Assembly (NCBI GenBank): GCA_015345905.1
Contig: JADDTR010000003.1
Coordinates: forward strand, 930,001 to 994,000
DNA length: 64,000 nucleotides
Direction: 5' to 3'
From: Aotearoamyces nothofagi
Taxonomy: Eukaryota > Ascomycota > Leotiomycetes > Leotiales > Tympanidaceae
Shown: positions 14,036 to 63,263 of the stretch, one piece after another
Position numbering within the stretch: position 1 is the stretch's first letter
Layout of the letters: each line of letters begins with the position of its first letter
Translations under genes and position numbers: made by a program
Notes under the pieces: generated by a model
The model's input: only the letters and a program-made list of their open reading frames with translations
Database searches by the model: none
What the model was told of the DNA's origin: nothing

Positions 14036-17000
14036 CTAAATCACAATCGCCAGCTCGGGCCTGTCCATTTTTTCGTCATCTAGGTTGGGATAGTATGGCA
14101 CCATGCCGTCTGCTCCTTGAACGTACGCATCGTTATAAAGTCTCCAGTATGGCTGTCGAACCTTCCGAGCTGGGTGGAAAAGACCGGCCCAGACGTAGTT
14201 CATTGTGAGCCCGCTTCCTACCGCCATACGGATAGCGTCAATAGCTTCGATGATTCGGTCGATGACGTGAGGACTCGTCTCAAACAGGTTGGGATATAGG
14301 AGGTTGAGCAAATGAAGCATTGCATCTTCACACCCCAGACCGACTACTCCTAGTGCAACATGTTTGACGACCGAGGCAGCCGTCTGTCTGTGGACTTGGT
14401 CTCTGTCGATCAAAGCGTCTTCTAGCAATGGCGTTACAGCGTAAACGTAATCCTTGGCCATTTCACCGATATACTCAAAGAGGAATGACAGTGACTTGAG
14501 AACACCATTCTGAACATTCAATTCAGGAACCCGGTATTCGTTCATCAGGGCTGGAAGCACCGTGAACGGGGCACACGTTTCGGCCACAATACCGATAGCG
14601 ACAGCTGTACAAACACGAGACTGACGCTCCTGTACTCGGAGATTGTTGAGTAGGGTGGCAAGAACATCCTGAGGCCCAATAGCCTTTGCGATGAAACCAA
14701 AAGTGTTGTTGGCAGCCCGACGGATACCCTTCTTGTGAGCTTTTAGCATGTCTAGCAATTCAAAGCAGATTCGCATCCATTCTCGAGCATTGACACTCTC
14801 TGGTCCACGATCTGCGATACGTCCGACTAGGTCAATAGTGTTCTCTTGGACCTTTTCGTGCCGATTGCGAAGAATTGGAGTGAGGCGTGGGAGTAAGTCC
14901 CTGATTGGTGGTTGCATTTGGCTGATACCAACTACTGTGACGATTGATCGAAGTGCTCCAAGAATGGATCCCAGCACCTCTGGGTACTCTTCTCCTAGGT
15001 ATTCGTACAGCACGATGCCTAATTTGCCCATTAAGGCGTCTTCTCCACACTGTTTCATCACCATAGCGATACGTGAGATCAAATCTGCAGCTTGCTGACG
15101 AACGGTGGCGGATTTGTTGTTTAGGCGCCAGAGGATCGTACTGACTATTTGAGGTAGGTATGGCTTGCATCGAGTACCAAGAGCGTTCACAACCGTGCCA
15201 AAACCGTTTAACATAACGATATCTTCCACACTTTGCTCTTGGAAAGAGTGAAGAATACCGTCAATCAGACGCTCTTCTAGACGCTCCCCAATATCTGCAG
15301 CACCAAGACTGGCGATAACTTTCTCGATAGTTTCCACAGTCATCTTCCGGTAGGCCTCACTTTCATCTTTGAGATTGTTAACAATTCGCTCTACAATCTC
15401 GCCGACGCCAACCTTCTGCCCCAGGTCGACAGTGGTATCAACAACCTGTCGATAGTTACGCTTATCCAGAGCCATTCGTCGTACCCAGAAGCTCTTGAAA
15501 AACTCATCCAATACATGCTCCTTCAAATATCCTGCTGTCACACCATCTGTACCCGCACATTGTGAGACAACTTTAAGCACGACCTTCTTCATCTCTTCGT
15601 CTGGCGAAGAGAACTCTCGCAGGAGAATCTCCATGATCTGACTTGTGTAGTAGTTGGCATACTCTTCATCCATCAAAGGGATGATATATCCGACGGCCTT
15701 GAGGAAACCAGCAAGACCCTTGCCACGCTGCTTCCTTGCACCGGTCCAAAGAGGGTTCAAGATATCATCAAAACTTTCGATACCATAGGGGTTTGCCGCT
15801 TCTGCTAGTGCTGCAATAGCTAAACTGGTCACAGTCCGTACCTTCGTCTGGTCATCATTGAGATTTCCACCAATACAGTCAACCAAACCTTTGAGATGTG
15901 GTAAGACTGCGCAGCCCATTAGAATGGGGATTTGTTGAACAATTTTGACTCCAGTGTGCCGTGCTTGCCATGACTTCTTGCTTCGACACACAGCGCGGAG
16001 GAAGGGAAGTAGAGCAGGAATGCCCAGAGCTGAAGCAACAACAGCAAACGCTCTCGCGGTAGTGTTTCGGACGTACTCGTCAACGTGGTCAATATCAGGT
16101 CGCATGGTACTAATCATGTGTGCCAGCCCAGCAGCTTTACTGAGGTTAGAAATAATTTCACGACCTTCAACTCTGGCGTAGTAGTCTTGATCAATGAGCA
16201 ATGGTTCGATAACGACCAAAATTTTGTGCACGTATGGCCTTACAAGGTCATCGAGCTTGTAGAGAACACGATCAATGACCTTGACCAGTAAATGTCGTTC
16301 TTGATCTTCCAAGCTCTTTTCCATAAGGAGGGGAAGAATCTGGTTAAAGAGGGGGCCTGCTCCAAATTGCCGCGCATTATCTGTAAGCTGTCGCAGAGCA
16401 GTCTTTCTCATAGGTGGCGTGCCATTTTTGACTTTCAGTAGCAGTCTCATGATCTTCCGCTCTTTCAGCTCTTCCACGCTCATGGTGTTCTCATCGCTCC
16501 CGTCTGTCAGCTTCCCGAAGTACGCCATATCCTCAGCTTTGAAGAACTGTAGTTCGCCTACTCCCGGGATTTCTGTCGGCAGTTGCTTCCCCAGTGCTCT
16601 GCCACTGTCGGGGTCCTGCATCATGAAGCCTCCATTATTCATAGGGGTTGCCATAATCTTCTGAGCTGCTGTTCGAATAGGAGCATATCCCGGTGGCGGG
16701 TCGAGGATCTTGTAGCCCTCAGTTGGGAGCATCATATCTAGTTCCTCGTCCGAGAGTGGCGCATTGCGCATTGAGATATCGGTGCCGAACGCTGTAGGCA
16801 TCATGGCGCCGCCCTGTGATGGATGCATCGGAGTGACAAGACCTTGAGCACCAATAGGTGTCGCAGCAGGCGCTTGATCCCATCTAGAACGCCGTCTTGG
16901 TGTATCTTCGACTGAGGAGGCACCGGGCACGGGAGTTTGATCCCATCTTGAGCGCTTGACCTTAGACTCCGACGGTTGTACGGCGCCACCTTCAGCTGTG

Positions 17001-17707
17001 GAATCAGAAGCGACATCCCAACGCTGCTTCCTCTTTCTTCCTGCATTGACAATCTCCGTTGATCCTGCGTCCTTGTTTTCCTTGTCGCTTGGCGAATTGC
17101 TGCCATCTTTCACAAGAGTCGCATTGTGGTGGACTACCTCGCCGTTCGTCTCCTTTTCTGCGATAGCTCGTTTCACTCGTTCCTCTTCGCGCTCTAGTTC
17201 TCGTCTTTGCATTACTTCTCGATAACTCTCGCCCTCATCTGCGGCGCCTGCCTGCCTGTTTGCTGCAAACGCATCGGCTCTCGTAGGAGTGAGCACGCGA
17301 TCAAGCCTTCGTTTCTGATAGTCAGTCTCACGGTCAGCAATCCGCGCACTCTTCTCTCTCCCGAGCAGAATATCCTCCTCTTCAACCCCGCCCCCACGAG
17401 AGAACTCGTTCATCTGATCTTTTGTAGCCGTGTATTGACCAACAAGCCTCCTACTATTGTCTGTACCCTCCATCTCATCATCTTCGCCATCCTCGGCGAC
17501 GGCAATAGAGGTGTTATAACCTGCAAATTTATCTCCTCCATCGCGCTCGTACAAGGTCGTATCGAAGCTCTCGGTCAAGGAAGCCTTGCTCGAGACATCA
17601 GTGCGCTGACTAGAAGGATCAAAAGTCTTCGACCCCTTCTTACCAGCAGAAACGGCATTCCGCTCAGCCTGAAGCTTCCGGATAGTCTCGAAGGTTTCGT
17701 CAGACAT
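14036..17707 (-). CDS. SF3B1: splicing factor 3B subunit 1 (U2 snRNP)
   Basis: Single-exon 1223-residue orthologue of human SF3B1, yeast Hsh155 and fission yeast Prp10. It is the scaffold of the U2 snRNP SF3b complex that clamps the branch-site helix in the nucleus. The acidic, disordered N-terminus carries three RW-type U2AF ligand motifs (W230, W255, W276; contexts KQRWD, RSRWD, RSRWD). Next comes the conserved p14/SF3B6-binding segment, about residues 319-350 with [19 protein letters not shown] repeats fill residues 430 to the end. The block TKVRTV, equivalent to the human K700 region mutated in leukaemia, keeps its lysine, and the C-terminus ends ELAIVI. Length matches fungal relatives. 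The start at MSDETFETI gives the family's usual N-terminus. U2AF65, its binding partner, lies next upstream on the same strand. Confidence 0.97.
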
Positions 17708-18291
17708 GATGGCGATGGTTGTTGACGTGCTTATGAGTTGAGGCGCGGTTATGAATTTGATATCTTTAGAATTGCCAGAACATGCTATTCCTAATCGGGA
17801 CTAATCCAAACCCAAAAGTCACATGACATCTTGAGCAACACTGTCCTGGAATTTGAATAGACGATGGTAACCTTAGATACATATCCAAAGCATGGAGATG
17901 CACTCTTTGTGCTCTTCATTGTATCTTGTCCGAATGATCGCAGCTGAAGCAGATGTAAAGCACGAAAATGTTATCCACGTCCTGACTGTAATGTTCTCGT
18001 CGGACTGACCACAAAGCATGATAACTATGTTCTGATATTCGATAATGATATATTCACGTGGTCTTAGGGACATAGTGGGTGACTTCAGTTTTATAGATGC
18101 TGATATACAGTGAAAAGTGCAAGCGCTGATCCTTAATTTAGTGCAATTACTTTTCTGCTGAAGTACGCCCTTGAACAGAATATACTAGATTTACATAAAG
18201 GTGAAGTGGATCAAGAATCTCGTTGGGATATATGATTCCTCGATTTTGTGGCGTAGCATGCGCGCAAAATTTCAACGAGGATGACGTGATC
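17708..18291. other. spacer between SF3B1 and U2AF65
   Basis: About 580 bases of fairly AT-rich sequence between the SF3B1 start and the U2AF65 stop, both genes reading on the minus strand. It must hold the SF3B1 promoter and the U2AF65 3' end. No additional reading frame, repeat or RNA gene was recognised. Confidence 0.65.
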
Positions 18292-32107: not shown

Positions 32108-34742
32108 TTATTCTCTCTTGACCAGCACTTCTCTCGCGACGGCGCTGCACAGTTCCACCGCGATGCCCGCCCCTGTCAGCACGTGAATCCACAGTCGCTG
32201 GGTGTCGCTCAACCTATCATTCTCCGACTTGACCTCGGAGAACATGACCGCTCGCTGCTCCGGATGCCACAGGAAGAGATCTGGCATGCCGCCCTGGCGC
32301 TGGCGATATTCCTGCGCCATCACTCTGCAGACTGCGGCCAGCGCGGCGCCGTCAAAGCACGACGCTATCTCGACCAGATCTGCCAGTTGGAAGTCCCAAT
32401 CGAGGCCCACCACGCAGGTCTTGAGCTCTCGCTCTCGGCCGTCGACTTCCCTGATCAGGCGCTCCGAACCGCCGTTGGCGATCTCGACTAGGCGGTGGTT
32501 GATCTCGGATGCGCGCGACGGGTAGAATGCGTCGGTGTGCAGATCGAGCGGACATGTCTGGTATGGCGTCTGGAAGACGTTGGGGATGTAGACGAACAGG
32601 ACGTCGTAGAAGAGGTAGGCGAACAGTGTCCGGATGATTCCACCCTCGGCGTGATACCCTTTCCATCCAGCAGAGCGATACCAGGAAAGGCACATGGCTT
32701 CAACACTGCACTCTCCGCTACCCTCTCTCTCGTCTACCCAGACCGTCTTCGTACTGACACGCAGTTCTTCAACTTGGCTGGGCCTCCGACGAACAAGCGG
32801 CTCCTTCTGTATCCTGATCCCCTCCACAGTCCTCTCGGCTGGCTTGCTGAGACTCACATGACCGAAATCGTGCTGTTCTCGTTTCGCCACTTTCATACCC
32901 TTCTCCAATTTCCGTATACGCTTCTGTAGGTCGTAGTGGTAGATCATATGGCAGTCTCTATCCTGCAGCCCCTCCTCACAGGTCTTCAGGGCGATTTTCT
33001 TCCACTGCCGTTTCTGCTGGTCTAGATCCGCGCCGCCAGAAATTGGGAGCAGAGGTTCAAGAGCTGCCATGTAGTGTTCCTCGAGTAGTGCCTTGCGCTG
33101 ATACCACGCGCCTCGCCTTGCCGCGTGAAAGAGCCTCTGATCGAGAAGCTCCGCAAGAACATCGTGTTCCCGAACGTGCATCTTGAACCTTCCAAGCACA
33201 TAAGTTGCCTTGTGTACAATCCGTGTATATACCCACGCAGGCGAGAAACGGCGCAGGTAAGCTCCTTCGCCACTCTCGTAAACGCGATCTTCCTTCCTCT
33301 GCTCTTCTTCCAAGAGGGCCTTCCATCGGGGATAGATGTCATCAAAGATGCCCAGCACCTCTTCCAACCCTTCCTTCCCCGGGTTCCCGTTGAATTCCAG
33401 GATATTGTCAATGCGGAACTGTGTCCGCAGCGACGCTTCGAATTCCAACAAGCCCGATCTGGAGGCGAAAATGTTCGCGGATCGCGAGACGACGTACTGC
33501 GGGAAATTTCTCCGCGAGATTCTGGCGAGAATAATGGTGGTCAATGACTTGTCCGTCCATTCCGTCGATCTGTAGAAAACCAAATGTACTCTCTCGAATA
33601 GCTTCAGCGCTGAAAGGGATAGCCGTATGCATGGCCCTGTGCTTGCGAGTATCTTGCCCACGAAATGCTGGTCCCTGTTCACATCATTGAAAGTCCCTCC
33701 ATCTCGACCTTCTCCAGAGCTATTCGAAGCAACAGTCTGTTCACTGTCCGACCTTCTCAAGCCAACCCAGCCCAGCCCGCTCTGTCGTTGACTCATCCGC
33801 CGCAGAGCCTTCACAAGCCCCGCCTTATTCTTCCCCTGAACCTTCGCCTCCTTAGCCATTGCCCTTAGCTCTTCCAAGTTCAGCAACGACGATGCCTCTT
33901 CGAGGGTCGTGATCTCCGTCTCCGACGCATCCGCAAAGGTGAAGCCCTTCCCGAGACTGTATCCTTCGGGAGGAGCCAGCTCGCCGGGGTTCGCCTGCGG
34001 CGCAGCGGCGGAGCCTGGCAGCTCTCTCACGGCTCGCAGAGCTGCAGCTGCGGCCGGCATATCCGAGACGTCGCCGTGATATCCAAGCCTCGATATCCTG
34101 TGCCACGCCGCGGTTTTGCGCAGGAACAGTCGGACATATCTATCCCGTCAGTAACGCAACAACTCGCCTCACAAGAACCGGAAACATTACTCACAGGTAC
34201 TGCGCCTCGTACTCCAGTTCCCGCCAATATCTGAACACGGCTGTCTCGGCCTCATCAAAGAGGTGTCCTTCGTCTTCTAGGACCGTGTTGAGAGCCAGGT
34301 TGAACGCGTCCACATAAATCGAACTCTTCCCCCTCGTCCACTTCCTCAAGCTCAAGCGATCTCGGATCTCCGAAGGGACGTCCTGCTCTTCCGCAGCTCG
34401 CATGGCCTCGTAGTCCGCAATGGCCTCCTTGTCCGTCTTGACAGGTGCCAGGGTGCTTTCGAGTTCTGTGATCTGGCGAACCGCGGGCCTCGCGCCATCG
34501 CCATCATCGTCATCATCCTTCCCTTCCTCTTCCGAGTCGGGGATCTCGTCTCGATACAGCTTCGGCGTCTCCGCTGCCGCCGCCTCTGAAGTATCCCCCG
34601 ATAAGCTCCCACTGCTCCCTTCGCTCGGAAGGGTCTTCAGCCGTTTCGCGGGCGGCGGCACGTCCTGCCCACTTCCCTCGTCCCAATGAGTCGATGCGGG
34701 GTGCTCCACGCGTCGTCCCACCATGGCATTATCCATCATCAT
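32108..34742 (-). CDS. FAN1: Fanconi-associated structure-specific nuclease
   Basis: Predicted 859-residue nuclear nuclease that acts in repair of interstrand cross-links by cutting 5' flaps and branched DNA. Two exons: 34742-34195 and 34139-32108, with a 54-base intron. The N-terminus is disordered and acidic (DSEEEGKDDDDDGDG). The SAP/TPR-like middle starts with IYVDAFNLALNTVLEDEGHLFDE. The C-terminal VRR-NUC domain shows D803 in PDLFLW, then E818 and K820 in SEVKS; the spacings of 15 and 2 match human D960, E975 and K977. Family blocks WVDEREGSGE and AEGGIIRTLFAYLFYD are present. Overall length is shorter than human FAN1 (1017) because the N-terminal UBZ finger is absent, as is usual in fungi. 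Three consecutive ATGs at 34742-34734 make the exact start uncertain. SDC1 diverges 312 bases upstream. Confidence 0.93.
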
Positions 34743-36085: not shown

Positions 36086-36827
36086 CTATGAGACCATAGT
36101 GCTAGCAGTGGCGCTCTCGTATCTCCAGGTAGGTGGTAGAACACCGACGGTCTTGTAGTAACGGGAGAGACGGTGGATACGGGACTCGATCAGAATAAGA
36201 CGGAACTTGGAGTCCTTGTCCTTTCGGTTGCGCTCGAGGTGCTTGCGGACGGCGACAGCCTAGGGTTACATTAGCATTGGTACAAGAGTGAAGAGGATGT
36301 GCTAGTTTCTTACCTTCTTGATCAGCATGTACAGATCCTCTGGGATTTCTGGTGCGAGGCCTATATTTCACTCCGTCAGTCAAAGACCAAACAGAGGCAG
36401 TATTGAAAACGGTCTGGTGTCCGAGTTCTATGCAGGAGTGTGGATGGGAGACGGGCTCGAGAGCTCGTGCGGTGCAGGTTTTTTTCTTTCTTTCTTCATA
36501 TCGGCGGAACCGTACCATTTGACTTGAGGATTCTGAGAATCTTGTTTCCTGCGGGAGAGAGAGAAAGTCAGCGAGAGGGATTCTCCACGACCCGACGTGG
36601 GCGGCGGGTTTGAGGAGGCACGTACCGGTCACAACCTTGACCTGGGCAACGCCGTGCGAGTCGCGAAGGACGACACCGATCTGGGAAGGGGTGGCACCCT
36701 TCTTCGCGAGCTTGCAGATCTGGTCGACGACCTGCTCCGGGGTGGTCTTGAGCCACGCTGGGGCGGTGCGCGAGTACGGGATGGCGGAGGCCGATATGCC
36801 CTTTCCGTTGCTGTGAAGTCTTCCCAT
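36086..36827 (-). CDS. RPS13: 40S ribosomal protein S13 (uS15 family)
   Basis: Predicted 151-residue cytosolic small-subunit ribosomal protein; length equals that of yeast and fission yeast S13. Four exons, high to low: 36827-36626, 36548-36516, 36360-36314 and 36259-36086. Two internal exons are tiny (33 and 47 bases). The family sequence is intact: [10 protein letters not shown] start, [58 protein letters not shown] and the C-terminal [12 protein letters not shown]. Intron positions were set by matching these conserved blocks. The density of introns in a short, highly expressed gene is normal for ribosomal proteins in moulds. It converges on SDC1. Confidence 0.96.
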
Positions 36828-37961
36828 GTTGGCGGTCTGGTCGATAAGTTTCTGGACGAGCGGCTTGTCGATGGCTGCTTTGGCTTCTTCTCGGGTCGGA
36901 GAGGTCGTCGCCAGGAGGGTCGTCGCGAGAAATTCTGATGTGCGGCTCGCTTAGCCTAGGGCAGACTAACGAGGAACGGAGCTAGGCCCGCTCTGGACGC
37001 CCGCGTCTAAAAGAAACCACCTCGCGAATTTCCGAGACCTGCCAAACTTCCTCATTACTATTATTTCTTTTGCACCCTCGCTCTGAATGATCCGGAGGCT
37101 CTTGTCGGGTTCTGGCGAGAGCGGTAGACGCTTCTATGCTCTTGCTTCGTAGTCTGCTGGCTCGCAGGCGTGTTGGATTGGCAGCCAGTGCCAGTCCCTT
37201 CACCTAGCAGCTCACCAGTATCCGACAGAAGCCTCCTCCTCATCAGCGACCGGTTCTCGCCCGACAGGCCGGTGGTGCTGATGATATACCTCCGCAACGA
37301 TTTTATCTAGACCACTGCCCTCGGCGGCCGAGGCGACTGAGGCGACTGCTCGTTCATTGACGACCGGTCGCCAACAAAGCCCGCTCATCTCCGTAAGCCC
37401 CCCCTCTTTTATTCCATGCCAGGTCAGGTCGAAGCATAAAATGATGATACTCCAATTTAACTATTTTTCTGGTACCTCTTATGTCAGGCGCCCTAACGGG
37501 CCCGATGATCTAAACGGACTTCTGAACTTAATTTCGACCTGCACCTTTATTTTCTGCTCATCGTTTACTTGATTGTGGATGGCTGGCTAATATTGTGCTT
37601 AGATTCTACATGCCTTGGTGCCTGTGCAAGCTCTTGGGGTCGTACTTTGGGAGATATATATATATATATATATATATATCATGTCCGGACTTTTTACATT
37701 GGCTTGCTACTATAGTAGTGCGTTGAAGTGGAATCCCCTGTGGACTTTTGATAATGCTTGCTGCCACTATTATTAGATGATTGAAAGACCTGATCCATCG
37801 TATCTCATTATTGCGTTGAAATATCGTCATCCGTCATGCCCTGATTACCTGATTTCTGATTACCTGATTTCAGGAACGCCGTGCACATCCCATCAGACCC
37901 AAAGCCCGAATTCCTCCAAATCCGACGCCATATAATTCCCCAAACCCCCGGCCGGACCCCC
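36828..37961. other. spacer between RPS13 and BUB2
   Basis: About 1.1 kb. The first 130 bases likely hold the RPS13 leader. The rest includes a perfect AT array at 37653-37680 and a 19-base sequence at 37729-37747 that recurs exactly at 40840-40858. No coding gene was recognised. Confidence 0.6.
37653..37680. repeat. AT dinucleotide microsatellite
   Basis: Fourteen uninterrupted AT units. Confidence 0.95.
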
Positions 37962-39453
37962 CTACTTCGCATGCATCACGATCTCCGCATACACGTCATC
38001 CGGGATCTTCTTGATCAGGGTAAGCGTGACCTCCTTGATCGTCTCGGCCTGGAGGGGGGGGAAGGATCGCAGGATCTTTGTAGGGCTGTATGGAGTTAGG
38101 GGCATATCACGGTAGGTAAAGAGAGAGAGAGAGAGAGAACTGGCCTTGGAGAGCTCAAGATGGAGGTGCGCAGCATGACGAGCTGGGCGACGATGCAGAG
38201 GATGTTCAGGTGGGCACCGTAGGCGAAGAGGAAGTCCCACAGCCGCAAGACCTCGGGGAGAGGGGGCGTGCAGGCGCAGAGGGTGAGCACAGATGGGAAG
38301 GCGTAGAGTTCCGCGTGCATGCCTTTGCCGATCAGGTAGAGACTGAGCTTTGGATCCACGATGGCCAGGACCTTATCGACCAGCGCAAGGCCTTTGTGGA
38401 CGCCATCCATGGCGCCACGGACGTAGCCCGGGCACTCGTTGGTAATGAAGCGGTGGAAAGCCACGAAAGCTTCCGCCTCGCTCCGGGCGGCATAGAGGAA
38501 TGGCGCGGCGAGGACGTTCATGCCTTGGACATAGGTGCCCGGCTCCGAGGTTCCAGCATCGGATCCTTCCGTCGTCAGCGTCAGGGCTCGAGCGCGGGAT
38601 TTCATGATCGGCGTGACGGAATGGAGTTCCGGGCTGCCGTCTGAGTTGGCGCCGTACGTGACTTTACTGCCGTTGATGCTTGCGCCGTCGACACGCTCCT
38701 CTTTCGCATCGTGCAGCTTCCAAGCCACAGCATTCAATAGACGGATCAGGCTCGCTTCGCTGACACGGCGACGGAAAAGAGGATCGGTGGCTAGGGTTCG
38801 GAAAGTATCGTTACGGATCTTCGAATATGCGGGCGAAGCACCGCGATGGATGAGCGAGAGGTAGGTATCAGTTTCCAGCAATGGCGCATTAAGAAGGATG
38901 AGCCAGACGTAGATTCGTAAAGAGGACTGGGGAAGTTAGTAGAGCACTTCTGTTGGCAACAACAAGAACTCACCATCCCATCACTATCACTCTTGATACC
39001 TTGGGCTAGGATCTTCAATCTCATGCTTTCCAGGCCCCCCACAATGTCTACATCTGGAGGCCCATCCCTTATGAGGCGGTCGAGCGACATGGCGTCGTTG
39101 ATTATGGTCTTCTTACCCTGTCTCTTGCCAGCAGATCCCGGGTCGGAGGGATTTAATTGGGGATGTGGTGCATCGCTTTTCGAGCGACTTCGTTGAGTTA
39201 AAGTTGTAGTGCGCGTAGGAGACTGTGCACTGGGTTTTGGCTGCTGCTGCTGCTGCTGCTGTTCTTGTTCGTGCTGCAGTTGTCGCTGCTGCGAGATCAG
39301 AGATGGCTGTGCGATCAATCGGCCATTGTCTGGACGCAAGGTTTGCACGGATTTTAACCTGCGCAGGTCGCGATGTGTCCGTGGTGAGGGCGGAGGGGCA
39401 AGAAGCGTAGAAGGTGGAGCGAACGTGCTCTCTTTGGTTGGTGAGATGGACAT
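37962..39453 (-). CDS. BUB2: mitotic checkpoint TBC-domain GAP (Bub2/Cdc16)
   Basis: Predicted 461-residue GTPase-activating subunit that, with Bfa1/Byr4, restrains the Tem1/Spg1 GTPase at the spindle pole and so delays mitotic exit and septation. Three exons, high to low: 39453-38974, 38926-38145 and 38085-37962. The first 150 residues are disordered with a poly-Gln run from CTG/CAG repeats. The TBC domain follows with both catalytic fingers: I197-x-x-D200-x-x-R203 (arginine finger) and Y292-V-Q294 (glutamine finger). A variable insert lies at about 235-288. The C-terminus has KILRSFPPLQAE and ends EIVMHAK. The first intron is GT-AG (47 bases). The second (59 bases) fits the family only if it starts with GC, see findings. 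Confidence 0.92.
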
Positions 39454-43377: not shown

Positions 43378-43568
43378 TCCAGCGCATCCCCATTTATCCT
43401 TTATCCTGAAGCTTGATCAACAGCAGGCACCCTTCCTCCCTGCCTGCAAAGCGACCTCCGAGACAACTTCGCCCTCACCAGCGCGACTATTGTTGTTGCT
43501 GGATTCCTGCCGGACAAGAGGAACTCGCATTTTCCCTCGCCGCCGACGCTTACACCCCGGCAGCCACG

Positions 43569-46133
43569 ATGGCGACTGCTTCGGCCAAGACGGGCCACTT
43601 CCTGGCCAAGATCCTCGGCATACAGCTCGATCCGTACCATATACCTCACGAGGAGATGAAAAGAGGAGAGTCGGTTTTCTCACTTGAGACAGCCGACTCC
43701 TTCATCGAGGAGGAGCCGACGAGCTTGGGATGGGTTCGAGAGACCCTCCCAAGTCCGCAGGATCTTCTTGCCTACACCAGATCTCTATTCCCCTTCACTT
43801 ACTGGATTGGTCGATATAACCTCCAATGGTTTGGAGGAGACATGGTTGCAGGTATCACCATCGGCGCTGTTGTCGTTCCTCAAGGAATGGCATATGCAGC
43901 ACTCGCCGAACTAAAGCCTCAGTTCGGTCTGTACACCTCCTTCATGGGTGTACTCATCTACTGGTTCTTTGCCACCTCCAAGGACATCACCATCGGTCCT
44001 GTCGCTGTCATGTCAACTATCGTTGGAAACATTGTCGACAAGACCGCAAAGACCAATCCTGATATCGAGGGTCATGTTATTGCATCCGCATTAGCACTGA
44101 TATCCGGATGCATAATTTTAGCCATTGGCCTCGCCCGTTGTGGATGGATTGTCGAGTTGATCTCTCTCACAGCAATTTCAGCGTTCATGACGGGATCTGC
44201 CCTCAACATTGCAGTCGGTCAACTTCAAACCCTGTTGGGCCAGAGCTCCAAGCTATACAACTCACGAGGCGCGACTTATATGGTCTTCATCCACACCCTC
44301 AAATTTCTCCCCAAGGCAAAGGGGCCAGACGCTGCAATGGGTGTTTCGGCACTGGCAATGCTGTACATCATCAGGTCAGCGTGTAAATACGCTGCAAAGA
44401 AGAACCCTTCCCGCAAGAAGACATATTTCTTCATCTCGACGCTTAGGACCGTGTTTGTAATCTTGCTGTACACGTTGATTAGCTGGCTCGTCAACAGGAA
44501 CCACCGATCAAGCCCGATCTTTTCCATTCTTTCCACAGTTCCCCGAGGTAAGGAGTCTCCGACCGTTATGATTGGTCACGAGCTGGCCGCTAACAATCCA
44601 TGAATAGGCTTCAAAAATGCTGCAGCTCCGGAGATCAACACAACCATTATCAAGGCTTTCGCTAGTGACTTGCCGGCTACAGTCATTGTTCTTTTGATTG
44701 AGCATATCGCAATTTCGAAATCCTTCGGTCGAGTCAACAACTATATCATCAATCCGTCCCAAGAATTGGTTGCCATTGGAGTCACCAACATCCTGGGCCC
44801 TTTCCTCGGCGCCTATCCAGCCACGGGATCCTTCTCTCGTACCGCTATCAAATCCAAGGCTGGCGTCCGCACTCCGCTTGCAGGTGTCATAACCGCGGTT
44901 GTAGTGCTCCTTGCCATCTACGCTCTCCCTGCCGTCTTCTTCTATATTCCCAAAGCAAGCTTGGCAGGCGTTATCATCCACGCCGTGGGAGATCTTATCA
45001 CGCCCCCCAACACCGTTTACCGATTCTGGCGAATCTCTCCCTTGGAAGTTCTTATTTTCTTCGTCGGAGTCTTTGTAACGATCTTCTCGTCCATCGAGAA
45101 TGGCATTTACTGCACAATCTCTATCTCGGCCGCGGTCCTCTTCTTCCGCATCTTGAAAGCCAAGGGTCGCTTCCTCGGCCAGGTCAAGGTGCACTCCGTA
45201 GTAGGAGATCATGTCATTGGTGACGCACCTAAGGAACCCGGCCGGACTGGCTTCGAAGACAAAGAGGATCCCTCGGCCACAGCCGTCCGCACAATCTTCC
45301 TACCCATCGACCACGGAGACGGCTCCAACCCCGATGTTCAAGTGAATCAGCCTTACCCAGGAGTATTCATCTACCGCTTCTCAGAAGGCTTTAACTACCC
45401 CAATGCCAACCATTACCTCGACCAGCTCACCCACTACATTTTCGCCAACACCCGCCGCACAGACCCTCACACCTGGGGCAAGCCGGGAGACCGCCCATGG
45501 AACAATCCCGGGCCCCGGCGTGGTCACGAAGCCGACGACGTCTCTGATCGCCCAACCCTCAAAGCCGTCATCCTTGACTTTAGCTCTGTCAATAATGTCG
45601 ATATCACCTCGGTCCAGCAACTTATCGACGTCCGTAACCAGCTCGACAACTACACTTCCCCCGAAATCGTCAACTGGCATATCGCCTCCATCAACAACCG
45701 CTGGACCAAGCGTGCCCTGGCCTCTGCCGGCTTCGGCTATCCCAGCCCATCGGGCGAGACACGGAGCCGCTGGAAGCCCATCTTCAGCGTCGCCGAGCTC
45801 GGCGGATCCGATTCCGCCGCCAACGTCGCTGCAGCCAAGTCCGAGAAGGGTGTCGAAAGCCAACGCTCCGGCGCTCGTCCATCGCCGACCAGCGACGGCA
45901 TCCAGCTCCACATTTCCGACTCCGCTAGCGCCTCGAGCGACGAGGCTCTCAAGCGCCAGCCCACTGCGGTGCAGACTCGCCACGAGCCTCGCAGGGCTGC
46001 CGTGGTCCAGGGCCTGAACCTCCCACTGTTCCACGTCGACCTCGTCAGCGCCCTCGAGAGCGCAGTCGCGAACATCGAGACCAGGGAGGCCTACGAGGCC
46101 AAGGGGGGACCTGGTATCGGCCAGGAGCCGTGA
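43569..46133 (+). CDS. sulfate permease, SulP/SLC26 family
   Basis: Predicted 834-residue plasma-membrane sulfate transporter, similar in layout to Neurospora CYS-14 and yeast Sul1/Sul2. Two exons: 43569-44547 and 44608-46133; the intron is 60 bases. A hydrophilic N-terminus is followed by the SulP signature (AGITIGAVVVPQGMAYAALA, then KPQFGLYTSF) and 10-12 membrane segments, including the conserved GPFLGAYPATGSFSRTAI. The C-terminal STAS domain covers about residues 575-705 with the DITSVQQL loop (D658). A Ser-rich tail follows. Start choice: an upstream in-frame ATG at 43413 adds 52 residues unlike the family; MATASAKTGHFLAKILGIQL matches the expected N-terminus. In other moulds such genes are induced by sulfur starvation through CYS3/MetR, but I found no clear binding site by eye. 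Confidence 0.93.
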
Positions 46134-47282: not shown

Positions 47283-49524
47283 TTATATGCCCTGGACCGG
47301 CACGGCGAAGGCGTCGGGTGGTAGGTTCGCCTGTTGGGGGCCTTTGTTAGCAGGGGGTGGTGTGTGGGGTTTGGTATGAAACAAGAGGGGGGGGGGGAGA
47401 AGACGGACTCTATTATTGTTAAACGTGACAACTGCGCGCTCGAGGTCCCATTCGCTCTGCTCCAGGCACAGGGACGAGTACTGCGGCGTCATGCGCGTCC
47501 GCGCCGCGAGCTGGGCCACCAGCTCCTGCTTCGTGGCCAGCTCGGCCGCCGACGGCCGTGGTGCGGCGGCCGGGAGGGGCGCGTTTGGGTCGGCGAGCGA
47601 GGATGTGAGGGGGCTCCAGGCGCGGAGGACGACGACGTCGCTGACGACGCGGATGGCGGGGCCGCTGGGGGTCCCGGGCCCGAGGACAAAGGTGCGGGAG
47701 AAGCTGCGTAGGACGGGCTCCGCGAGGGGGCTTTCGCGCTCTTCGAACTCGCCGTGCATCATCAGCATTAGGCCGTCGACCCCGGCGCGGCTTTGCCCGC
47801 TGGGGTCATGTAGTCCTGGCACCGGATGGCAATCGATGATATATTTAGCCATCTCCGTCTCCAAGTTGGGGTGTTTTGTGGATGGCAGCTCGGCCCAAAG
47901 AGCCTTGATTGCTTCGACGCCTCTGTAGGTTCGTGCCATGCGTGTCGGGAGGTTGGTGATCTTCACAAGGTTCCGGGAATGTGTTAGATACGCCGCCCAA
48001 GATTGTGTTGTGTGGGGGTGGTTTGGTGATAGAGGAGCGATTGTATTGACTGAGAGTGAGTGTCTCGACTGCGCGTCGTAAAAAGTCGAAGCCAGGGCGC
48101 TACGGTCCGTGTCATAGAGGGACAAGAACTGTATGACAAATCTTTCTCCTATTTGGTTGACATCGCGAAAGTCCGGACCGTTGATGGGAATGGGAGGTAT
48201 GTGAGCTTCTTGACGGGCCTTGTCCATAGCCGCCAATACAGCTGCAACCTCTTCTTTTGATCTGACGACAGTCTGATTCAGAATTTCAAGTGTTGGAAAC
48301 CACTTTACTAGTTCCTGGGCGTAGTCAGGCGTTGTAGTTAGAAGAGGGTTATCGCAAATCTGCAGATTCTGTAGTTTGCGAAACTTCCAGCGCCAGCCTT
48401 CCAGTGCTTTGAGGGTTCCAAAGTTATTTCGGGAAAGATCCAGGTTGATTACGTCCGGGAAAGTCTGAGCCATGGTTGTGACAGCTGAGACGCTGTCAAG
48501 TTCATTCCCGCTCAGCATAATGCTAGTGACGGCTTCTCGTCTAGCATGTGCAGTCGGCCACACCTGCTCACAAATCGCCATCAGCACCGGAAAGAGCTTC
48601 GTGACTCTTTTTTGTGCATCAAACATGCCCATCTCCACGAGACCCTGATCTTGGCCTAAAGCGGACAAATCGAGCAACTTGTCGTCCGGCCTGTAGCGGG
48701 TGCTAAGAATGCCCATGATTTTTGATTTCGTGCTTTGGGCATCCTCAGATAGAACCCCTCCATCTTTGCTATGCTGAGCTGTAGTCGGTTTGCCGACTTT
48801 CTCAATAGCAAGAGTTGCCGCGGCAAAACCGAATCCGTTTAACCGCATTATGAGTGCCATATCCTCCGGGCTAGCCGTGATGATAACGTCGTCGCCTTCC
48901 ATATAGTGCTATTCGATGTTAGCAAGGCATATCAACCTTGTTATCGATCGCGGGTCACGGGAAGGCGGAGATCTCAAATGGTCGAATCATCCTCGCCGAG
49001 TTCTTGCTTGGCTGTGGAACAAGACAGGAGCCATGGCAACATCGCGATGTCATCCCGTGCGCGATCTTGACAGTAGAACATACCTTCTTAACAACCACCT
49101 TTTTCTTGCCTCTTTCCGAGGCTTTGCGTTCCAGAAAGTCCAGTAGACTTTTCACGCCTCTGTCGGGGTTCGTCGCCGCTTTACTCTTGTCGAGGCCGCG
49201 AACTCGTAGATGATCGCCATGCTTGACAGTCCCGTTGTGTGAGGTAAGTGACTCTACGATGTTCACATGCTTCGAGCCTAATCCTCGCAGTATGGCTTGC
49301 TGCGCTTGTTGTGAATCGAGCCTGCTACGCCCTGCGCGACCTGGTCCTCGGCCTCTAGTCGAGCCACCACGGCCTCTGCCCCTCGAGTCGCTTCCCCCAG
49401 CAGCGTCCATGTCCAAATCTCCATCCCTATCTACCCTTGTCCGTTTTTGGATTCCGCCTCGGCCGCGCGTACTGGGAGAGCCATGTCGGGGCCCTCTTGG
49501 CGGTGTGGAATTACGAGGAGGCAT
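47283..49524 (-). CDS. MEX67: mRNA export receptor Mex67 (NXF1/TAP family)
   Basis: Predicted 662-residue nuclear export receptor that carries spliced mRNA through the nuclear pore with Mtr2. Three exons, high to low: 49524-49084, 48908-47409 and 47330-47283. The N-terminus is Arg/Gly-rich (RGRGRGG repeats). An RNA-binding psi-RRM-like region follows, then leucine-rich repeats (IMLSGNELDSV, VINLDLSRNNF, LQNLQICDNPL). The NTF2-like domain starts at about RFVIQFLSLYD and contains YRGVEAIKALWAELPST. A UBA/TAP-C domain ends the protein (MTPQYSSLCLEQSEWDLERA, then LPPDAFAV). The 175-base first intron is GT-AG. The 78-base last intron has an excellent branch site (TGCTAAC) 17 bases before its end, though its donor GTCCGT is weak. 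Third positions become much more G/C-rich in the last 450 bases. Confidence 0.93.
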
Positions 49525-56891: not shown

Positions 56892-57761
56892 GACCTGAGT
56901 CTTTTATGATGTAGCATTGGACCTTCTTTTAGCGGTTATGAATTACGAAGAGCGATGAAAAAGGCGTTGGGTCTCTATCCCGCCGTCGGGACAACAAAGA
57001 TCAGCGATTCAGCGGTATGCAGATGTGGCACGGAAAGCTTGTTTTCTTCTTCTTTTTTCTTCCCCCATTCTCTTAAAGTGTATGGCTAAAAATATTTATT
57101 CCAAAATGATCGGGTGGTTTCGAGGCGGAAGCTCAATCCATTTCATTCCCCCCCCCCCCCCTCTTCTCAAGCACTCTTGTACGAGATGCAAATGCGAACG
57201 GAAAAATTCACGCTTCGGGGAAATTGAATACCGAGCGAGGAGAAATCCATGCTTGTCCTGGGGGGGGGGTTGAAGATCTGCATTCCCCACCCCCAGACCC
57301 CATGCCGATATGTGATTGTGGACCTTTTTTCTTACCTTCCTTCCTATTGGCCGGTCCCTGATCCTGATCCTTGGCCCTTGGGATTGTTTTATATTTTTTT
57401 TTATTTTTATGTCCTGGTCATGGGATACGGAGTATGCCCGGCAGCCCCGCGTTTTATGTGATGTGGGGGCGGAGGGGCGGATGTCGTCACGCGCTGTGGT
57501 ATGGCATGGTATGGTATGGTATACTGGCCTCGATAAAGGCTGGAGTGCAGAATACAGGTGCAGGTGCATATGCAGATGTGCTATATGCTATATAGCCGGT
57601 TTAGCGGTTGGGAGACTTGAGATGGGATGGGATGGTTTTCTTATACCGCTTCGTTGCTCTGTGCTCTTTTTCTCTCGTTAGCCTGTCGCTTTACTGCTAT
57701 CATCCTTCTTGCTGTCGTCGTCGTTTCTTCTTCTTTGCTATCATTGTCATTCCTCCGGATC
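56892..57761. other. spacer between the BTB gene and the carboxylesterase
   Basis: About 870 bases with a poly-C run near 57151-57162, poly-G near 57260, and a short GGTAT/GGCAT repeat at about 57499-57522. The last 100 bases stay open in the esterase frame, but the likely start codon is at 57762. No other gene was seen. Confidence 0.65.
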
Positions 57762-59405
57762 ATGCATCTCAAGACTCTTCTTCTCCCACCTCCCCTCTCC
57801 ACCCTCTCCGTCACCCTCCTAGCCTCCCTCTCCCTCCTCCTCCTCCTCCCCAGCACCGCCGCCGCCCCAACCCTCGTCGCCGAACTCGACTACGGCACCT
57901 TCCAGGGCGCCTACTCGGCGCGGTACAACATCAGCTACTGGACCCGGATCCCCTTCGCCGCGCCGCCGGTCGGGGAGAACAGGTTCCGCGCGCCGCAGCC
58001 GCCGGCGAGCGTCGCCAACGGCACGTACGACTCGAGCCGCAGTTTCGATTCCTGCCCGCAGAGGACGGTGAATGGCTCGGAGGACTGTCTGTATCTCGGC
58101 CTCTACGGCCGGCCCTGGGACGCGTCGCGGCCGCTCCGGCCCGTCGTGGTGGTGTTCTTCGGCGGCGCCTTCATCGAGGGCGGCGGCTCCTTCACCATCC
58201 CGCCGCCCGGCTACCCCGTGCTGAACGTCTCGGCGTCCAACGACTTCGTCTTCGTCTACCCAAACTACCGCGTCAACGCCTTCGGCTTCCTGCCCGGCCG
58301 CCAGGTCCACAGCTCGCCGACGTCAGACCTCAACGCCGGGCTGCTCGACCAGCAGGCCGCCCTGCGGTGGACGCACAGGTACATTGGCGCCTTCGGCGGC
58401 GATGCCGCCAGCGTCACCATCTGGGGCCAGTCCGCCGGCGGCGGCAGCGTCGTCGCGCAGGTCATCGCGAACGGCGGCCGCACGCAGCCCCGGCTGTTCA
58501 GCAGGGCCCTGGCGAGCAGCCCCTTCTGGCCCAAGACGTACCGCTACGACGCCCCCGAGGCACAGGACGTCTACGACGCGCTGGCCCGGCTGGCGGGCTG
58601 CGCGGGGCCGGACTCGCTGCGCTGCCTCAAGAGGGCCGACGTGCAGGCGCTGCGCGCCGCCAGCCTCGTCGTCGCGGCGAGCCACACGTACACGACCAGC
58701 TCGTACACCTGGGCGCCCGTAACGGGCGACGCGTTGCTGCCGCTCGGCCTCGTCGACGCCACGTCTGCCGGGCGCGTCAACAGCCTGCGCGGGTGGGGCA
58801 TGTACAACGAGCTCGAGGGCGAGAACTTCATCCCCGCGGGCCTCGCCTCGCCCGCGTCGACGGGCGCGCCGGCCTTCAACTCCAGCGCCGCCTCGTTCGA
58901 CGCCTGGCTCGCCGGCTTCCTCCCGCGCCTCTCGGCCGCGCGCCTCGGCGCGGCCCGGGCCCTGTACCCGGACCCCGGCACCGCGGAGGTGCTGGCGGCG
59001 TACGGCGGCAGCTACGCGCGCGCGCAGCTCGTCTACCGCGACGTCGTGCTCGCGTGCCCGGCGTACTGGAGCGCGCGGGCGGCGCGGGCGGCGGGCTACG
59101 TGGGCGAGTACGCCATCGCCCCCGCGACGCACGCCAGCGACACGCAGTGGTGGAACCGCGTGTCGGCGGCGCAGGCGGCGGCGCCGCTGACGTACGAGGG
59201 CTTCGCCGGCGCCCTCGCCTCGTTCTTCCAGACGGGCGACCCGGACGCGCGCAAGCTGACGGGCGAGGGCGTGGACGGCGTGCCGCGGGCCGAGACGGGG
59301 CGGGAGTGGGTGGTGCTGGAGGGCGGGTTCGGGCAGGTGGCCATGACGGAGCTGGAGGCGAGGTGTGCGTTTTGGAAGGGGGTGGCGGGGGAGATACCGA
59401 TCTGA
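57762..59405 (+). CDS. secreted type-B carboxylesterase/lipase
   Basis: Predicted 547-residue single-exon alpha/beta-hydrolase of the carboxylesterase-B family. A signal peptide of about 35 residues (Leu-rich core, STAAA before the mature APTLVAEL) directs secretion. Family blocks: GTFQGAYS, IPFAAPPVGENRFRAP, SEDCLYL, oxyanion motif FFGGAFIEGG, and the nucleophile elbow WGQSAGGG with S224. The likely acid is E352 (N-x-x-E-G at 349-353) and the likely base H457 in THASDTQWW. Cysteines fit the family's disulfide pattern. Substrate is unknown; relatives hydrolyse lipid, feruloyl or xenobiotic esters. Third positions are almost all G or C, much more than in neighbouring genes. An upstream ATG at 57627 is in frame but would bury the signal peptide, so 57762 was preferred. 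Confidence 0.92.
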   Translation: MHLKTLLLPPPLSTLSVTLLASLSLLLLLPSTAAAPTLVAELDYGTFQGAYSARYNISYWTRIPFAAPPVGENRFRAPQPPASVANGTYDSSRSFDSCPQRTVNGSEDCLYLGLYGRPWDASRPLRPVVVVFFGGAFIEGGGSFTIPPPGYPVLNVSASNDFVFVYPNYRVNAFGFLPGRQVHSSPTSDLNAGLLDQQAALRWTHRYIGAFGGDAASVTIWGQSAGGGSVVAQVIANGGRTQPRLFSRALASSPFWPKTYRYDAPEAQDVYDALARLAGCAGPDSLRCLKRADVQALRAASLVVAASHTYTTSSYTWAPVTGDALLPLGLVDATSAGRVNSLRGWGMYNELEGENFIPAGLASPASTGAPAFNSSAASFDAWLAGFLPRLSAARLGAARALYPDPGTAEVLAAYGGSYARAQLVYRDVVLACPAYWSARAARAAGYVGEYAIAPATHASDTQWWNRVSAAQAAAPLTYEGFAGALASFFQTGDPDARKLTGEGVDGVPRAETGREWVVLEGGFGQVAMTELEARCAFWKGVAGEIPI

Positions 59406-59796: not shown

Positions 59797-62700
59797 TTAC
59801 ATGACAGCACATTTGTCTCCTTTTTCCTTCTCCGCTGCCCCCGAGGTATCTCTGGATGCATCGGTCCAGCCTGCGCTACTGGCTCCACCCGTGTCGCTCT
59901 TACTCTTCTTGCTCTTCTTCCTTCTCATCGTCCCACGCCAGCCTCTCCGCTTTACTTCTTTGATATTAATCGCCGCATTTCTTCCTGCTCGGCTTGTCTG
60001 CCGTGATATGCCGGGACTCCGCACGTATGCCTGAGGCAGAATTTCACACTGTGATGCTATGCTCTGAATGGTTTCTAAGCGTGCCATCCTTGGACGGAAA
60101 CTTAGTGTAGATGATGATTGTTGTCTGGAATGACCTCGAAGTTGTGTCTGCACTAATGCACGAGAATCTCTTCTTGAAGGATCGCTGAGTCCGTGAGGTC
60201 GTCCAGAGCGACTGTTAAGCCTCGCCATCTGAGCAGCACTGGGTGAAATAAGGTCTGGTGCTGACTGGTCGATATTGGTTTCTAACGATAATGCCGCCGG
60301 CAAGGTCTCGACTGGCGGCAGTGAAGGTTTAGGTTGCTCGTTCATGGACTCGATGCCACTCTTCATTGGCTCTATTGGTGTCATTGGAGGCAGCCCAGTC
60401 AGGTGATGGTCATGATTTGGCCGTTCGGGTGTTGCTGCATCCAATCTCATCCGGGTCAATGATGTCGCCCCAGATGAAGTGGGCCGTGTGGCTTGATTAA
60501 GCGATAAACGTAAGTCCGAGCCAACCGTATCCTCCCATTGCTCTGGAATATTGCTGGTAACTCGGCCAGGAGGGTTTGACTGCGAGACGGGCGACGCGGG
60601 TTGGAATAAAGTTGCACTCACATCCAACGGCGGTGAGGGGGTTTGAGCTGCAGAAGAAGCTATAGGCCGACGTTGTATTTGATTAACGGGGGCCGGTACA
60701 GCCGGAGACGCTTGGACCGGCACTGGCGTTCTCGGTGGAGAAACATCATATAAATCATTAAAATCTGCAGCTTCGGTTCGGCCCGTTCGTCCATAATCTC
60801 CGTCGGAAGAATCGTTGCTTAAGACAGTCTCAGTAGGGTCGCTGACAATCTGCTGGGGTTCACGTTGGGGTTCGGGCCGAGCTGGTCGACTGCCTGGCGC
60901 GAATGTCGTCCGCGAACGTTGCAGAGTCGAAAGTATATCTGCTTCCGCAGAGCCACTGCTTCTTTGAGTGCTTGATCTATGTAAAGAATTTGGTGCGATA
61001 GTAACGCCCGCCTGAATGGCATTCCGAAGATGCTCAGGCAGTGGTGGAACAGGGTCTTTGCTATAGGGGGGCGGAGGAGGAACCCAGTTATCAGCATCAC
61101 TTTCATGTGGATGTTCTTCTCGGCCATCGGCGCGACGGAACTGAACGTGCTCTTGAGTAGCAACACGCGGCGGATGTAGCCGACGATTGATAGCCGCAGC
61201 GGTTGCAGCACGGCGTAGTGTAGTTCCTGAACGGGGGCTCCCGTGAGCATATGGAGCATCAAGTGCTTCTTGATCCTCATCGATTGATGCAGTTTCGGAA
61301 CTCTCTGTAGTAGGCAGCCTCGTAGTAGGCGCAACAACTGGCAAGTCAGGAGGGCCGTCCCGTCTGCTAGTGCTTTGACTGACCGCAGCATTTGAACGTA
61401 CGGCTGCAGTAGATGATAGCAGAACCGTGGGTACGCTACTTTTGCGTTGCGCTATAGTTCTTCTCCGAACAATTGCAACTTCCGCTTCCAAATCTCTGTA
61501 TTCTTCTTCCAACACTTCTGGTTCCTTCTCGCCAAGTTCTATTGTTATAATCCTCTTTTCGCCATTAATGGTTCGATAGTCGAAATCTAAAATTAACAGC
61601 CTTCCTCCGTCTATAGGAGCTATACCGTCTTCTTCGCCCTCGAAGAGCTGAGTACATGCGTGACCAATCCCTCCAGGTGCAGTCGCAATAAGACGCTCAG
61701 TATATAATGAGTCTGGTTTCGCCCTAACCCATTTAAGGGCACTGACACCTTCGAGGTTGGCAACGTTGCAACCTTTAATGAAAGTGTTTCGTGATTTGTC
61801 CGAAAGCAGCTGCCACTGCGGAACCCTAGAGATGTTCGTATCACGTGGCCATGTATGAGAACGGAGAGAGCCACTGTTTGCTCGAGATAATGCGCCTGGC
61901 AGTGTTGCCGTACCAACCTCTCCATTAATATTAGTGATTTGACTAGACTCATATGAAGACTCAAGGTCCTCTGGAACCCCATAGACCCATATCTCCTTGC
62001 CCTGGAAGCCAGCCGCTACTAGATCTCCAGAGCCAGTGGCCGCAGGTAACGTACTTGGCAACAATCTTATCAAGGAGTCCAAGTCTGCAGTAGGGCCAGT
62101 AAAATATGTAGTCCCATTACGGAGATCATCAATTCGGACGGCTCGAAAGGTTTCGAATACTCGATCATAGGTGAATATCCAGTTCAACGCATAGTCCAAT
62201 GAACTTGGTAGTAATACTGCATGACTACAGTCACGACTGCTGTTAGGAAATAATATTGAGGTAGCCCATAATTGACTAATGGTATCATCTGGAGAGTGGT
62301 CCCCAGGGTTGAAATATGGAGCCGTAAGAATAACGGTGCTTGGATTTTTCGAATGTAAAGTTGTTCCAAGGAGCTGCGTCCCATCCTGAGAGAATGACAG
62401 TGAGTCGGCAGCATCACACTTTACGCCCCTTCTATCTGTAGGCAGAGCCGATGCTGCAAGTGAATACACTTCAACTCCGCCATCATATGCTGCTGCCAAC
62501 ACAGATCCTTCCGGGGATAGAGCGATAGTTCGAGGAGGATGGTCGAGCGCAAGGGCTCGGATATGCTTTGGATGTCCTCCGGCAAGATCGTATAGGTCGA
62601 CTTGATGGCCGGTGGATAGAACAGCCAGTAAGGATCCATCGTCGAGGATGGTTACAGATGCTGGTCGCCGCAATATCTTAAGCTCTCTCTTGACCGCTAT

Positions 62701-63263
62701 GTCTGACTCCACCACATGTATAACATATATTCTCGAAGTACTATAGGCCAAGACATAGTGACCATTCGGGGAGAATGAGAAATGAAACGCCTCACCTCCC
62801 GGGAAGGCTGCTGAAGAGCTTATGGAAGTTGAAACTAGTTTGATGATGGTCTCATGAGGCCTTGAATATGCCTCGAATAGATTGCGCTTGGCCTCCTGAG
62901 CGAGAGCCTTGCGTAGCTTAGGTAGCTGGTCCTCAGTCACAGTCCCCCCAGTAGTATGGTGGCTGGCTGAATATGGTCGGCATCGAGAGAGATGGTATCC
63001 ATATAGATACGCTTGCTGTGATACTCGTCGCCAGTTTCGATTTAGAAGAACAAGTGAGGCAAAACAATTCGGATCGCAGGTCCGAAGGATGCTAGAGAAA
63101 GTCAGCTCAACATGATTCGGTCGTGGAAGTACACTTGCGGGACTTACAGCGCAATGATTTCATCAGGAAGCCTCCCAAATGAAGATGGCAATGTCAAAGG
63201 CCTTTGCTTGCACACTTTGCCATCATGAACAACCCCACCTGAAGGTTGGGTGGAGACCTCCAT
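59797..63263 (-). CDS. F-box/beta-propeller-like protein with C-terminal CaaX motif
   Basis: Predicted 1136-residue protein. Two exons: 63263-63148 and 63091-59797; the intron is 54 bases. An F-box-like motif lies at about residues 25-70 (LPSSFGRLPDEIIALILRTC, then LVLLNRNWRRVSQQAYLYG), expected to bind Skp1 of an SCF ubiquitin ligase. Residues 90-500 read as WD40-type blades (FHFSFSPNGHYVLAYS, RTIALSPEGSVLAAAYDGGV, SLSFSQDGTQLLGTTL), like fungal proteins carrying an uncharacterised propeller domain. Residues 540-1060 are disordered and Ser/Pro/Thr-rich. The C-terminus has a polybasic run (RRKKSKKSKS) and ends CAVM, a CaaX box with C1133. Membrane tethering by farnesylation is inferred. The ATG at 63263 gives MEVSTQPSGG; the second exon alone lacks a start. 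Target proteins are unknown. Confidence 0.85.

Follow-up and report, generated by a model that had tools for sequence, protein, structure and literature searches.

A candidate prenylated F-box protein with a DUF7165 propeller-type domain in a filamentous ascomycete

Does a filamentous fungus place an F-box protein on its membranes by means of a lipid attached to the C-terminus? The question is raised by a gene on the minus strand of the 64,000-nucleotide stretch of DNA analysed here (the window), the product of which begins with an F-box, continues with a propeller-type domain and ends, beyond a basic run, in a CaaX box. A preliminary description of the locus had pointed out this order of elements, and as a whole that observation is confirmed.

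Gene structure and surroundings

The gene extends from 63263 to 59797 on the minus strand and contains a single intron, giving a product of 1136 residues with CAVM at its C-terminus. It is composed of the following parts.

63148..63263, minus strand: exon 1 (116 nt), comprising the ATG, residues 1–38 and two bases of codon 39; contains the beginning of the F-box
63092..63147, minus strand: intron (56 nt) with GTAAGT, a branch-like CTGAC and TAG; lies within the F-box
59797..63091, minus strand: exon 2, comprising the last base of codon 39, residues 40–1136 and the stop codon TAA

The intron at 63147–63092 is required by the gene because the unspliced frame from the ATG at 63263 runs into a stop inside the F-box; its removal restores the reading frame. 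A scan for fungal-type introns over 63400–59400 returned five candidates, and a perfect GTAAGT donor is found in this one only. Two of the others start from one and the same GTACGT donor at 61401, and two lie entirely downstream of the stop. The predicted spliced model, 63263–59797, is thereby shown to be supported by sequence signals. The final codons TGT GCT GTC ATG, which encode CAVM, are followed by the TAA at 59799–59797 (minus strand), so that the CaaX cysteine is Cys1133 and the protein ends in ...SGAAEKEKGDKCAVM. The coordinates 59797–63263 and the CAVM end had been given exactly in the preliminary description, in which the intron was left unspelled.

A carboxylesterase family gene (PF00135, E 6.2e-55) occupies 57621–59405 on the plus strand and is convergent with the F-box gene. 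The GC content is 64–73% in the carboxylesterase DNA versus 47–54% over the F-box gene, a sharp step between the two neighbours. Elsewhere in the window, Pfam identified six conserved eukaryotic genes.

14036–17800, minus strand: SF3b1
32108–34147, minus strand: FAN1-type VRR nuclease
36102–36950, minus strand: ribosomal S13/S15 N-terminal domain
38096–38935, minus strand: TBC RabGAP
43410–46133, plus strand: sulfate permease
47283–48908, minus strand: NXF/Mex67-type export factor

The sulfate permease domain is split over two adjacent ORFs in the same frame with a stop codon between them; by eye, this stop falls inside an ordinary 60-nt intron at 44548–44607 on the plus strand (GTAAGG, CTAAC, TAG).

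The F-box and the DUF7165 domain

Two domains were recognized in the N-terminal half of the protein.

63016..63173, minus strand: F-box (Pfam PF00646), residues 31–64, split by the intron
61501..62859, minus strand: DUF7165 (PF23749), residues 117–569; the first part is WD40/beta-propeller-like

Against the whole protein, PF00646 scores 19.1 bits (E 0.0012), slightly below its curated cutoff of 20.5, and against a 68-residue segment alone it scores 25.0 bits (E 1.7e-5), above that cutoff. The F-box-like N-terminus that had been proposed is thus borne out. A PDB sequence search with the same 68-residue segment returned no match at E<=10.

The DUF7165 match spans the complete profile (1–442 of 442) with an E of 9.4e-199 and 661.2 bits (cutoff 26.7). 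A PDB sequence search also found similarity of the domain to the WD40 repeats of PkwA, with a whole-sequence E of 1.5e-10 to which three stretches contribute singly at 0.011 to 0.084, and similarity of the DUF7165 domain to UTP4 (E 4.9e-5). These matches, together with Pfam propeller matches below cutoff, all lie in the domain's initial ~165 residues, and no PDB sequence match was found for the later part. The propeller-type blades of the preliminary description have accordingly gained WD40-type similarity and a full-length family match, although the similarity is confined to that first portion. Nine Pfam rows were obtained for the whole protein up to E 10, namely the F-box, DUF7165, DUF7099 and propeller models; no leucine-rich repeat family was among them. 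Matches in an NCBIfam search were all far under cutoff. An AlphaFold model of residues 40–575, computed from the single sequence without an alignment, has a mean pLDDT of 34.8 and a pTM of 0.21, and the identification of the DUF7165 domain as a probable propeller rests on sequence. The Pfam family is a model to which no function has been assigned. It stops short of the tail and is therefore silent on the CaaX box. Neither DUF7165 nor PF23749 was found as a name in the open-licence literature searched.

No relatives of the F-box/DUF7165 protein were detected in the viral_contigs, genome_contigs or plasmids collections (the last by tblastn). Since these collections cover prokaryotes, viruses and plasmids, and a single sequence supplied the patterns used, the negatives are weak and silent on distribution among fungi. 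A degenerate pattern for one motif of the protein had no match in viral_contigs. The pattern for another motif had one match, in the viral contig L002, where the surrounding 501 bases look unrelated by eye. The Pfam DUF7165 model had no match in the L002 record or in 14 control genomes, in a search of a kind that does not show absence.

The tail and its CaaX box

Beyond the DUF7165 domain the protein continues for 567 residues, in which the following elements were found.

59800..61500, minus strand: low-complexity tail, residues 570–1136, with no Pfam family
61063..61074, minus strand: PPPY motif, residues 712–715, inside DNWVPPPPPYSKDPVPPLP; the sole PPxY of the protein
59896..59952, minus strand: basic cluster, residues 1086–1104, KRRGWRGTMRRKKSKKSKS
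59800..59811, minus strand: CaaX box CAVM, residues 1133–1136, matching a strict farnesyltransferase-type pattern

A Pfam scan of residues 576–1136 gave 0 families at E<=1. In the tail, S, P, A, R and T are abundant; P/S/T/G/A/Q/R make up 62% of its residues and aromatic ones 2.6%. Charge and hydropathy indicate disorder for the tail as a whole and for two of the four sub-stretches into which it was divided, and marginal folding for the other two; residues 570–1136 are probably flexible. Only two of the ten cysteines in the protein are located here (1054 and 1133). PPxY motifs are ligands of the WW domains in Rsp5/Nedd4-type ligases, and the PPPY at 712–715 is a possible ligand of this kind, judging by the motif and by such general knowledge.

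The basic cluster comprises two groups, KRR and RRKKSKK, six residues apart. The run RRKKSKKSKS, which had been noted earlier near the C-terminus, is present at residues 1095–1104. By a net-charge measure that was picked after the run had been noticed, shuffled tails equalled the cluster within their last 60 residues 16 times in 20,000, and at any position 13 times in 2,000. The suggestion that it acts as a Ras-like second membrane signal is weak, given that 28 residues separate the run from Cys1133 and that the 11 residues preceding this cysteine, SGAAEKEKGDK, are of mixed charge (three K versus two E and one D). In K-Ras, the lysines directly adjoin the CaaX cysteine. At such a distance, RRKKSKKSKS could equally be a nuclear localization signal.

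The strict CaaX pattern was defined as C, an a1 other than D/E/K/R/P/W/H, an a2 of V/I/L/M, and an X of M/S/Q/C/A. Its probability of arising by chance is 1.15e-4 from the composition of the tail and 3.1e-4 from that of the whole protein. In the entire window, the F-box gene is the one ORF out of 547 to end in the pattern, and cysteine occurs at position -4 in 16 of the 547; these ORFs run from stop to stop over at least 60 codons and are mostly not genes. The farnesyltransferase consensus has an uncharged a1, an aliphatic a2 and Met as X. CAVM fits this consensus and is also consistent with the rules available in PMC10320760, Table 3 of which lists the close motif CVIM as observed to be prenylated (100%). 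The authors of PrePS describe a hydrophilic, small or flexible linker of 11 residues before the prenylated cysteine (PMC1175975), which SGAAEKEKGDK resembles by eye. The assignment of the terminus as a CaaX box of farnesyl type with Met in last place thus agrees with what had been proposed, and farnesylation at Cys1133 is predicted as likely.

Codon use supports coding as far as the CAVM stop. A codon model was derived from codon use in six further stretches of the window (stop-to-stop ORFs, which may include some non-coding DNA). It gives the 60 codons before the stop +5.0 in their own frame, -11.6 and -12.3 in the other forward frames and 0.4, -24.7 and -3.8 in the reverse frames; the 60 codons past the stop in the same frame score -22.4 and contain 4 stops. 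When the model is built instead from codons 1–900 of the gene itself, the terminal 60 codons have a score of -7.2, compared with -10.9 and -15.4 for the other forward frames. These terminal codons are atypical for the gene, yet theirs is the best forward frame. A +1 frame overlapping the tail (61451–60822, minus strand) is stop-free for 210 codons. When the order of the codons in the tail was shuffled 2,000 times, an opening of this length arose in 5 cases, and in 2,000 synonymous shuffles it arose in 66; the open frame may be due to chance or be a vestige of an alternative product. Were an intron at 61401–61338 or 61401–61305 to lead into this frame from the GTACGT donor (with CTGAC and CAG), the 3' part of the gene model would be wrong and the protein would end at 60819 with no CaaX box. 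The rarity of so long an opening among shuffles favours such splicing, as do the scores of the gene-trained model over residues 601–780, which are higher in the +1 frame than in the main frame (1.7 versus 0.2, 6.1 versus 2.0 and 0.3 versus -5.0). The same model, however, prefers the main frame in the scoring window at 541, in all six from 781 onwards (781, 841, 901, 961, 1021 and 1081) and in the overlapping window of the last 60 codons. Moreover, the +1 translation matches none of the Pfam families at E values up to 10, and the main frame is open across all 567 residues to the end, so we consider this alternative highly improbable.

Two further explanations accept the CAVM terminus and differ on what it does. 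The protein could be nuclear or located at the nuclear rim, with the cluster 1086–1104 serving as its localization signal and the CaaX box, if used, making it a prenylated nuclear protein in the manner of lamins or Nap1. The two basic groups and their end 28 residues ahead of the cysteine are compatible with this proposal, as are the farnesylation of nuclear lamins (PMC9141697) and the CKQQ motif of a Nap1-like protein, which is retained in fungi (PMC1175975). A flexible linker might still allow the basic cluster to bind acidic membranes, however, and we regard a nuclear protein as unlikely, though a serious rival. Much the same low probability is given to the CaaX box being a chance or species-specific terminus of an ordinary soluble F-box/DUF7165 protein. 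The low complexity of the tail speaks for a chance origin, and the false positives of PrePS for farnesyltransferase amount to 6.3% of CXXX ends, or 0.11% when all sequences are counted (PMC1175975). Yet the chance probability per protein given above corresponds to about 1–3 such ends if a proteome of 10,000 is assumed. The yeast counts available in PMC9231725 are 89 proteins ending in CXXX, 41 of them predicted to be prenylated and 32 of these canonical, from which we infer that most strict CaaX matches in a proteome are real. With the F-box, propeller-type domain, basic cluster and CaaX box all present and a chance CaaX box unlikely, the designation as a candidate prenylated F-box protein stands.

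A membrane-held receptor and known F-box proteins

In the reading that we prefer, the F-box protein would bind Skp1, the DUF7165 propeller would be the domain that binds a partner or substrate, and the long, probably flexible tail would be farnesylated at Cys1133, holding the Skp1-bound receptor on a membrane. Taken as a whole, this reading is about evenly poised between being right and wrong, and its parts differ in strength. Predicted binding to Skp1 has a high likelihood, residence at a membrane is reasonably probable, and a role as receptor of an SCF ubiquitin ligase is slightly favoured over an Rcy1-like, non-SCF complex with Skp1. Recruitment of degradation machinery to a membrane is possible, a role hinted at by yeast Rcy1, a protein of similar plan that needs its CAAX box for localization. 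Of the membrane-anchored SCF adaptor built on a propeller that was originally envisaged, the F-box, the propeller-type domain and the CaaX box are retained, while the SCF becomes one option and the analogy with Ras is weak.

The middle of Rcy1 and of Pof6 is a Sec10/exocyst-like region; of the nine Pfam rows obtained for the protein described here (up to E 10), none is exocyst-like. Rcy1p of S. cerevisiae carries an F box at its N-terminus, binds Skp1 and requires its C-terminal CAAX box to localize to regions of polar growth; its homologues include Sls2 of Y. lipolytica and Pof6 of S. pombe (PMC2241642). In a table that lists the F-box proteins of fission yeast, Pof6 appears with the motif 'CAAX', the homologue Rcy1 and the remark 'non-SCF' (PMC2910015), and the title of a reference cited in PMC2241642 likewise calls the Skp1-Rcy1 complex non-SCF. 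The statement in the preliminary description that no characterized fungal example is known was therefore wrong, as Rcy1 and Pof6 both carry an F-box and a CAAX box (PMC2241642, PMC2910015), and since these proteins of similar plan are described as non-SCF, an SCF adaptor is only one option here. Their likeness to the present protein, as fungal F-box proteins with a C-terminal CAAX box, is one of described features, and they differ in that no propeller is named for them in the available text of PMC2241642 and PMC2910015.

Human FBXL2 was correctly invoked from the outset as a CaaX-bearing F-box protein of membranes: it combines an F-box with a C-terminal CaaX box (CVIL) that governs its membrane localization, and it is geranylgeranylated by GGTase-III via an interface between its leucine-rich repeats and PTAR1 (PMC9141697, PMC7729025). 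FBXL2 has leucine-rich repeats and Leu as X, whereas the F-box/DUF7165 protein has a propeller-type domain, no leucine-rich repeats and Met as X (farnesyl type). Given Rcy1, Pof6 and FBXL2, prenylated F-box proteins are therefore already a known kind.

An F-box followed by a WD40 propeller is the usual plan of SCF substrate receptors. Cdc4, Met30, Fbw7 and the fission yeast Pop1 and Pof1 likewise have an F-box and then a WD40-type propeller (names from PMC2910015). They differ from the present protein, the propeller-type domain of which is DUF7165, and F-box/WD40 receptors were absent from the PDB chains listed for it. In the fission yeast table as available in PMC2910015, the CAAX mark is absent from all five WD40 rows.

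The Neurospora protein CSR-3, which ends in CVVM, resembles the F-box/DUF7165 protein in being a large CaaX protein of a filamentous ascomycete that is not a GTPase, and sets a precedent for a CaaX box of importance in such a protein. A change of its CaaX cysteine leads to less accumulation at fusion points and to more lysis at low calcium, and the CaaX box is not required for localization on normal medium (PMC12561907). CSR-3 differs in being a chitin synthase regulator with Sel1-like repeats, and an F-box is nowhere mentioned in the available text of PMC12561907.

Among the matches listed in the open-licence literature on prenylated or fungal F-box proteins, none combined an F-box, a propeller and a CaaX box, and it is plausible that the combination with a DUF7165 propeller is a new arrangement. 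A set of fbx deletions in Aspergillus nidulans covers 74 genes and may include an orthologue (PMC6016232). If the tail is used, a receptor of ubiquitin-ligase type would be put on a membrane by the lipid switch that fungi also use for Ras, which, if true, would connect farnesyltransferase in filamentous fungi with membrane traffic or the turnover of proteins. It is a more speculative and rather doubtful proposal that F-box-DUF7165 proteins with a conserved farnesylation tail are a lineage of their own in filamentous fungi, lipid-anchored Skp1 receptors based on a propeller and independent of both Rcy1/Pof6 and FBXL2, in which the PPPY motif would also provide coupling to a ligase of Rsp5 type on that membrane. 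The protein described here could nevertheless prove to represent a further lineage of prenylated F-box proteins, the independence of which we infer, beside Rcy1/Pof6 and FBXL2.
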